A stretch of 64,000 bases of DNA from the NCBI GenBank assembly GCA_903825465.1, contig CAIKAR010000030.1, positions 124,001-188,000 on the forward strand, given 5' to 3'. Positions 42,241 to 64,000 of the stretch are shown one piece after another; position 1 is the stretch's first letter; every line of letters starts with the position of its first letter. The notes below the pieces were generated by a model. That model was not told the origin of the DNA. It did no database searches and saw only the letters and a list, made by a program, of their open reading frames with translations. The position numbers and the translations under genes were made by a program. This DNA comes from an uncultured Hyphomicrobiales bacterium. GTDB taxonomy: Bacteria; Pseudomonadota; Alphaproteobacteria; Rhizobiales; Beijerinckiaceae.

Positions 42241-42279
42241 GGGGACATCACACGGAGCGCGCGGCCCGCGCGGTGAAGT

Positions 42280-42373
42280 GGGAGGCTGGACGGAGACCCG
42301 CCCTGTCTCGTTAGGGCTGCTTCCTTCCGGACCTGACCCGGTTGGCGAGTGGAACGTCCACCACCAACCTCCC
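42280..42373 (-). ncRNA. ffs: Signal recognition particle RNA (4.5S-type)
   Basis: On the minus strand the sequence starts GGGAGGTTGG and ends CCAGCCTCCC, giving a long end-pairing. The centre contains the universally conserved SRP helix-8 motif GGTCAGGTCCGGAAGGAAGC at about 42318-42339, followed by AGCCC. Length about 94 nt is right for the bacterial short form. The RNA binds Ffh and targets membrane proteins. It lies 40 bp upstream of dnaX in the same orientation, a known Rhizobiales neighbourhood. End coordinates are estimated from the pairing. Confidence 0.93.
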
Positions 42374-62112: not shown

Positions 62113-62308
62113 GGATCCCTCCGCCGGCCACGGGGCCGATATTTTGAGGGAATGAAGATCGCGGCGACGCCGCCTGTCAACCAAAACTTGCGCAATTTGG
62201 CGTGAATTGAGTCGCCGCCGCCCCTTTTCCCGGCGCCGGGCTCTTTCCGATCGCCCGCGAATCTGCCTACATTCGGTTTGTCGTCAACAACCGAAAGGAG
62301 GTGATCTA

Positions 62309-62386
62309 GTGTCTCATTGTCCAATGCTGCGGTCGTCGGATCAAGGGACCTGGACCCACGCTCTTGTGGGAGTCAGCCCCGCGTGA
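62309..62386 (+). CDS. 25-residue ORF with perfect ribosome-binding site
   Basis: GTG start at 62309, 7 nt after GGAGG, stop TGA at 62384-62386. The peptide begins MSHCPMLRSSDQG and ends WTHALVGVSPA; it has one Trp, one Cys and two His. It is too short for any domain, and the second half lies inside an RNA hairpin. It could be a true small protein or a leader peptide whose translation controls the RNA fold; there is no run of one amino acid as in classic attenuators. The unusually strong ribosome-binding site argues that it is translated. Confidence 0.6.
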   Translation: MSHCPMLRSSDQGTWTHALVGVSPA

Positions 62387-62429
62387 GCGGCGCCTCGTGG
62401 TCCCGCCGGACCGCGGTCAATGACAATGG

Positions 62430-62458
62430 AAGGGCCGCTTTCGGGCGGCCCTTCTTTT
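62430..62458 (+). terminator. Intrinsic terminator of the small transcript
   Basis: AAGGGCCGC at 62430-62438 and GCGGCCCTT at 62445-62453 form a perfect 9-bp stem with a TTTCGG loop, followed by CTTTT (62454-62458). This is the clearest rho-independent terminator I found in the window. It separates the small unit from the downstream alcohol dehydrogenase gene. Confidence 0.85.
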
Positions 62459-62546
62459 ATTCGCCGCGCTTATTTTATTCACAACGCTTGGCCTTGTTGC
62501 TTCCGCCGCCCAAACCGTGCGAATTCGCGTTTACAGGGAGGCTTCG

Positions 62547-63647: not shown

Positions 63648-63702
63648 CAGGGCGAAGGCGGGATTTACCCTCGCCGCCTCAATGGACGCGGGAGGAAGCG
63701 CG

Positions 63703-64000
63703 ATGGCGGAGAAGCCGTTCCTATACGACCAATGGTACGTTTGCGCGCGCTCGCCGGAAATTGTCCACGACGTCATGGCGCGCCGGATCTGCGGCGTTCC
63801 GCTGGTGTTTTACCGCAAGGCGGATGGCGCGATCGCGGCGCTCGACGACCGCTGTCCACACCGCAAATATCCCCTCTCGCAAGGCGTCCTGCGCGGCGAC
63901 GACATTGAATGCGGCTATCACGGCATCCGCTTTCGCCCTGATGGACGCTGCGCGTCGATCCCGGCGCAGGAGGACATTCCGGGCGGATTTTCAGCCCGCG
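63703..64000 (+). CDS. Rieske oxygenase, vanillate demethylase-like (cut by window edge)
   Basis: 99 codons are visible; the gene runs off the right edge. The ATG at 63703 has a strong GGGAGGAAG ribosome-binding site. The opening FLYDQWYVCARSPEI is followed by the Rieske ligands C51/H53 (RCPHRKYPL) and C70/H73 (CGYHGIRF). The layout resembles VanA-type oxygenases that demethylate or hydroxylate aromatic acids, but the iron site is outside the window. It is unlike the phthalate-type oxygenase at 28874 in its N-terminus. Linked with the alcohol dehydrogenase upstream. Confidence 0.86.
   Translation, partial: MAEKPFLYDQWYVCARSPEIVHDVMARRICGVPLVFYRKADGAIAALDDRCPHRKYPLSQGVLRGDDIECGYHGIRFRPDGRCASIPAQEDIPGGFSAR

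Follow-up and report, generated by a model that had tools for sequence, protein, structure and literature searches.

A putative stand-alone small RNA gene related to Caulobacter CC2171, with a conserved complement of the 16S rRNA tail and a short reading frame whose peptide appears to drift

Between an MFS transporter gene of opposite orientation and a co-oriented zinc-type alcohol dehydrogenase gene, the window (the whole stretch of 64,000 nucleotides analysed here, from an uncultured Hyphomicrobiales bacterium) carries a compact unit of about 175 nt at 62281-62460 (+), in which a long complement of the 16S rRNA 3' tail precedes a short reading frame, and the question is what such a unit does. 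It has the appearance of an autonomous small RNA gene and of a relative of the Caulobacter RNA CC2171, the discovery paper of which is Landt et al. 2008. When it was compared with Rfam, as the preliminary description of this DNA had proposed, no entry was found at 62281-62460 at the gathering threshold, and with an E-value threshold RF01867 (CC2171) matched as a whole model (positions 1-159, 74.7 bits, E = 1e-15), 0.3 bit below the curated (gathering) cut-off of 75 bits that confers formal membership. The match is not truncated, its closing helix pairs fully and several inner pairs fail to form; the full-length RF01867 sequence and consensus structure (closing helix, terminator) are present. 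The RF01867 consensus, which opens with cAAcaA, includes the leader, the 16S-complementary element with the start (GUGUCUCAUuGuC), the closing helix and the terminator, all of them common to the window unit. Among 387 sampled genomes of the class, RF01867 was matched at E <= 0.001 in 94 and its cut-off was reached in 14, so the cut-off is narrow and leaves out clear homologues, of which, by this comparison, the window unit is one.

Rfam types RF01867 as an sRNA gene (Caulobacter sRNA) without assigned function. In excerpts of a study of Mesorhizobium huakuii, MH_s33 is annotated as RF01867 and RNA-seq products are given for 34 of 35 predicted sRNAs, the exception being MH_s6 (PMC5596092), and part of a table of Rfam structure updates credits RF01867 with one additional covarying pair. 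In the literature excerpts returned by our searches no description of ribosome binding by the CC2171 family was recognised; start-region and peptide strings returned nothing, and GGAGGUGAUCC led to work on 16S processing, in the excerpts of which the string itself was not seen.

Table 1. Features of the unit and of the region upstream of it (window positions).
Feature	Position	Strand	Evidence or remark
-35-like position CTTTCC	62243-62248	+	weak in this genome; T-rich columns at -50 to -47 in 170 relatives
-10-like hexamer TACATT	62268-62273	+	fixed-distance enrichment in relatives
Short A/C-rich leader with conserved CAACAA	62281-62292	+	transcript start probably nearby
Complement of the 16S rRNA 3' tail (14 Watson-Crick pairs and one U-G)	62293-62307	+	complementarity, conservation
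GTG ORF, 25 codons and TGA (62384-62386), predicted peptide MSHCPMLRSSDQGTWTHALVGVSPA	62309-62386	+	frame conservation
P1 5' strand CATTGTC (codons 3-5)	62315-62321	+	folding, permutation test, RF01867 model
ORF-internal ACCTGGACC, partly complementary to the initiation site GATCTAGTG	62348-62356	+	possible self-occlusion
P1 3' strand GACAATG	62422-62428	+	folding, alignment, permutation test, RF01867 model
Intrinsic terminator, stem of 11-12 pairs, loop TTCG, T-run 62455-62458	62428-62458	+	structure predictions

A strict sigma-70 scan found no promoter site upstream of the unit, and the stretch at 62243-62273 is called promoter-like by comparison with relatives. The best -10 position lay at -24 to -28 from the element in 88 of 170 non-redundant relatives, none of these positions being among the 12 commonest -10 positions of a shuffled set, and the mean best score was 7.4 compared to 6.9. 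In the leaders of the 170 relatives, A is found at -7 in 90%, at -6 in 78% and at -3 in 82%. Aligned relatives have a hairpin followed by T's at the terminator position. The preliminary description had placed three hairpins behind the reading frame, the last a perfect 9-bp terminator; the terminator stands, with 11-12 pairs rather than 9, and the row of three hairpins falls, as the reading frame overlaps the structured part and the conserved structures are the terminator and a helix that joins the distant stretches 62315-62321 and 62422-62428. Elsewhere in the window, the sole gathering-level Rfam match is a small SRP RNA (RF00169) at 42277-42373 (-), about 20 kb from the CC2171-type RNA, and the start of a Rieske-domain protein (63682-63999, +) follows the alcohol dehydrogenase gene and runs off the window end. 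At another locus (L173) a CC2171-type RNA (1501-1644) lies 55 nt upstream of an SRP RNA gene (1700-1796) on the same strand.

A 14-nt exact complement of the 16S 3' end had been claimed for this unit and was found as described: GAAAGGAGGTGATC at 62293-62306 is complementary to the tail GGATCACCTCCTTTCT, and T62307 supplies a further U-G pair, giving 15 pairs in total with a predicted energy of -27.2 kcal/mol. Among 143 genomes, 19 gave 21 places in all, and tails were read at 10 of these (the host genome's own rRNA not being among them), using a search pattern, GGATCACCTCCTT, that fixed every letter except the last three; these were TCT after GGATCACCTCCTT in 10 of 10 places, and we take GGATCACCTCCTTTCT, apart from this final TCT, to be the alphaproteobacterial 16S 3' end. 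Chance or an rRNA fragment was ruled out as the source of the element, since GAAAGGAGGTGATC occurs once in the 3.9-Mb genome and the pattern GAAAGGAGGTGRTCNNDTG (element plus start codon) has matches in 96 of the 387 class genomes, compared to none for a reversed control pattern. The preliminary description had made its reading depend on conservation of the SD element and of the ORF in relatives, and for the element this held not only in those 96 genomes: all 15 positions are kept in 50 of 74 distinct members found by covariance models. Recurrent changes among these members (A2>G in 3, A12>G in 11 and C15>T in 6) make up 20 substitutions in which the pair stays as G-U, and real losses of pairing are confined to positions 1 and 13 (one each) and 15 (four). 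In L221 and L251 an inserted base accounts for the changes at positions 4 and 6 and for two of the three at position 1, and L152 scored 9 of 15 through the search range, its element being present. By this comparison the element is near-invariant, and its changes follow the pattern predicted by conserved pairing with the ribosomal tail. Two members in which an additional A interrupts GGAGG were weighed against the main reading, as was the predicted accessibility of the element, which is only slightly higher than in shuffles (0.430 compared to 0.373, and higher in 65 of 90; folding analyses covered 90 of 194 members). In three members with MSR-type peptides (L223, L224 and L225) the region near the 3' end contains CACCTCCT, GCCTCCT or GCCTCC, each a complement of part of the member's own SD, and it is possible that these CCTCC strings are an off-switch or a mimic of the 16S tail.

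R1, the covariance model built here, found the family in 97 of the 387 genomes of the class; pattern and model agree in 84 genomes, with 12 found by the pattern only (membership checked for some of these) and 13 by the model only, and either one occurs in 109 of 387, so that the RNA is not a core factor, which was weighed against the main reading. Two sites each were found in three of the 96 pattern-positive genomes. In a draw from the phylum 79 of 299 genomes matched, two of the 79 outside the class; L238 (at best 9 of 15 element positions) and L239 (13 of 15, without a start codon behind) lie outside the class and were set aside. Contigs among the matches listed belong to Bosea, Methylobacterium, Microvirga, Roseiarcus, Brevundimonas and Acetobacteraceae. 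One exact-pattern contig (L095) is labelled Ramlibacter, outside the alphaproteobacteria, perhaps through transfer or a binning error. By nucleotide similarity 35 of 61 genomes matched, G055 at the terminator only. Genome G070 carries two copies of different types, L227 and L199 (MSHC and MSHG), and G410 also carries two, L253 and L207. Searches for relatives, as proposed at the outset, yielded about 200 that are non-redundant; the set A1 comprised 61 of 98 candidates, once 14 loci on a manually compiled list had been excluded and a length limit applied.

The 25-codon GTG ORF, said to start 7 nt after GGAGG, was confirmed with GTG at 62309 (ORF 62309-62386 with its TGA), and its frame is conserved in relatives. 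Without any length filter, 203 non-redundant sites (of 245; 9 loci had no usable site) were compared, and a stop after 14-34 codons was found in frame 0 in 202 of them, compared to 45 for the +1 frame and 68 for the +2 frame. When only the element and a start codon were used to collect sites (n=30, redundant and partly repeating earlier members), 26 had 14-34 codons, compared to 13 and 11 in the other frames, and the stop codons in 194 members are TGA in 110, TAA in 50 and TAG in 34. Besides L273 and L276, described below, two more sites exceed 34 codons; these long frames were weighed against the main reading. Frame conservation thus supports the earlier suggestion of a small mRNA, and the short ORF looks translated.

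Codons 3-5 are also one strand of the closing helix P1. Because the member search pattern fixed CATTG, the test of P1 used the 41 members without this string among 194 that were non-redundant (from 248, with a terminator and 8-60 codons required): the cognate duplex had -14.65 kcal/mol compared to -9.26 (sd 0.46) for permuted 3' strands, none of 5000 permutations being as low, and the longest helix was 5.56 compared to 4.65 pairs (sd 0.15), a modest gain, with at least 5 pairs in 35 of 41. Expected pairs between the two regions were 8.49 compared to 1.04 after shuffling, and higher in 74 of 90 members folded (of 194). Variants include CATAGT/ACTATG (L255), ATGAGATT/AATCTCAT (L240) and CATGGT/ACCATG (L227, L228 and L230), and by this comparison P1 is a covarying helix. 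Pairs that, by eye, are broken without compensation in L154, L174, L178, L179 and L180 were weighed against the main reading. In the window itself two folds compete, with a P1 probability of about 0.39, and a slightly shorter transcript has P1 in its predicted minimum. Covariation, for which the preliminary description had proposed to test three hairpins, was found for P1; the inner hairpins are only modestly better than shuffles (in 106 of 151 MSHC members and 21 of 43 others), which was weighed against the main reading. In 125 of 151 members of the MSHC group, pairing of the initiation site with the body of its own ORF exceeds the mean for shuffles, through a CTGG (CUGG) that is common there (134 of 151); outside the group a start-site complement is found in 26 of 43 only. 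At L059, CATTGTC and GACAATG adjoin as a small local hairpin within the ORF, and in seven distant members (L220, L222, L236, L240, L248, L250 and L252) a hairpin late in the ORF was seen by eye; its loop is of CAGC type and often encodes EQP, and its arms seem to co-vary.

If the unit were a gene for a functional small peptide, its mRNA being translated well and its long SD serving high output, the conserved frame, start and stop would be expected, and the common MSHC N-terminus and the W in 119 of 151 MSHC members would fit as well. However, from codon 5 on, differences are spread evenly over codon positions 1/2/3 (232/235/231 in 89 pairs) and the synonymous share, 0.249, is near those of the wrong frames, 0.234 and 0.224 (equal-length pairs of 72-97% identity, each sequence used at most twice, the pairs being phylogenetically non-independent), unlike control genes flanking the RNA at the same loci, with 541/465/1619 and 359/232/1650 differences and synonymous shares of 0.62 and 0.76 (two clusters of neighbours, presumably gltX-like and prfC-like, represented by 6 of 9 and 6 of 7 members). 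The N-terminal MSHC, ahead of the tested codons, coincides with P1 and varies wherever the helix varies (MSHC, MSHG, MSSE, MSNE, MSRK), and the W codon coincides with the motif complementary to the start site. By these comparisons the frame is kept while the peptide drifts beyond codon 4 in the bulk of the family, and there a functional peptide is disfavoured; we consider a small protein gene rather unlikely. The suggestion of a dual-function RNA with a useful peptide is not supported for the bulk of the family, given the same lack of excess synonymous change from codon 5: of the marks of a dual-function sRNA, comparison finds the conserved reading frame and not the conserved functional peptide. 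A possible exception is formed by L273 (58 codons) and L276 (56 codons; the same site as L243), which encode similar peptides with a hydrophobic stretch that by eye is signal-peptide-like, and in this branch the ORF may have turned into a genuine gene for a small protein, with a peptide that matters. A leader or attenuator of the alcohol dehydrogenase gene, also proposed earlier, would suit a unit lying upstream of that gene on the same strand, yet a strong terminator closes the unit and in a survey of 121 loci (crude ORF calls of at least 100 codons) the neighbours and strands vary: strands where both are known number 27/26/23/20, close to random, the commonest neighbour family has 9 members, and no conserved association with one downstream gene, as for a leader peptide or attenuator, was found across the 121 loci. 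Such variation makes a leader for one gene unlikely, and we rejected this reading, giving it almost no credence for the alcohol dehydrogenase gene; together with the terminator and the promoter-like columns in 170 relatives, it upholds the claim of an independent unit.

Small RNAs with CCUCC loops exist in alphaproteobacteria, and the unit might be a sponge for these rather than a partner of the ribosome, as the element would equally bind CCUCC motifs and the three MSR-type members bear CCTCC-containing strings near their own 3' ends. This seems very unlikely, as conservation over 15 nt, including GAAA and GATCC, fits the 16S tail and members retain the start, the frame and the stop. A classical trans-acting antisense sRNA that is incidentally translated, an exposed loop pairing with target mRNAs, would agree with the Rfam typing as an sRNA gene and with a stand-alone unit with a terminator, but no other conserved stretch able to serve as a seed was seen by eye in the alignment than the 16S-complementary element, itself kept as a 16S complement, and we regard this explanation as unlikely.

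A frame kept without its peptide, together with a near-complete 16S-tail complement, in an sRNA family to which no function is assigned, suggests that recruitment and transit of ribosomes are themselves what is selected. We therefore favour as the probable reading, for the bulk of the family, an RNA selected for 30S recruitment and brief translation and not for its peptide; among the options of the preliminary description, 30S binding or titration, or translation-controlled folding, fits the evidence and is preferred. The A/C-rich leader and the 15-nt complement would recruit 30S subunits at very high affinity, and with the adjacent start codon and an in-frame stop about 24 codons on, the recruited ribosomes would initiate, run briefly and leave, recruitment and transit rather than the peptide being the selected trait. 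The RNA would also be self-closing, codons 3-5 pairing with the strand at the terminator foot and, in the MSHC group, the ORF-internal CUGGA motif covering the initiation site, and a loaded ribosome would open the fold in competition with this self-closure. We infer from this binding of 30S subunits in cells, switching by ribosomes and an effect on the cell: the RNA may sense or influence the supply of initiating 30S subunits, and may tie up 30S. In the class of the window genome many mRNAs lack SD sites. In an excerpt of work on Caulobacter, an SD site is reported in 24.6% of coding sequences (PMC4117421); an RNA bearing an SD of this strength could therefore alter the balance of translation between mRNAs with and without such a site.

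RF01867 is known as an sRNA, and its Rfam name and description, as shown, mention neither a translated frame nor a 16S complement; both the complement and the pattern of a frame without its peptide are added here by comparison. SgrS/SgrT is a dual-function sRNA with a short ORF. The dual-function sRNA rnTrpL/peTrpL, as described in an excerpt of PMC10117765, is likewise a small RNA with a short ORF; the window RNA family differs from both in having no visible peptide selection from codon 5 on. According to excerpts of Schrader et al. 2014, translation is absent from the intergenic regions that express most Caulobacter ncRNAs, but two earlier ncRNAs are translated, and Pos19, in the part of its source available, differs from the window RNA in size and ORF. 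Extended SD-aSD initiation is known in Staphylococcus aureus, where according to an excerpt of PMC13009471 a long SD pairing with the 16S tail is similarly extended toward the start codon, but there it serves many mRNAs, whereas the window type is one stand-alone RNA; unlike the S. aureus case, the CC2171-type RNA keeps the full-length element across much of a class. We tentatively propose, as a possibility short of a probable one, that CC2171-type RNAs are a class of ribosome-engaging, very high-affinity 30S docking RNAs, whose peptide-neutral ORF and self-closing helix would allow them to sense or buffer the supply of initiation-competent 30S subunits. Such a docking RNA would be comparable in logic to 6S RNA, which acts on RNA polymerase, with the ribosome as its proposed partner instead.
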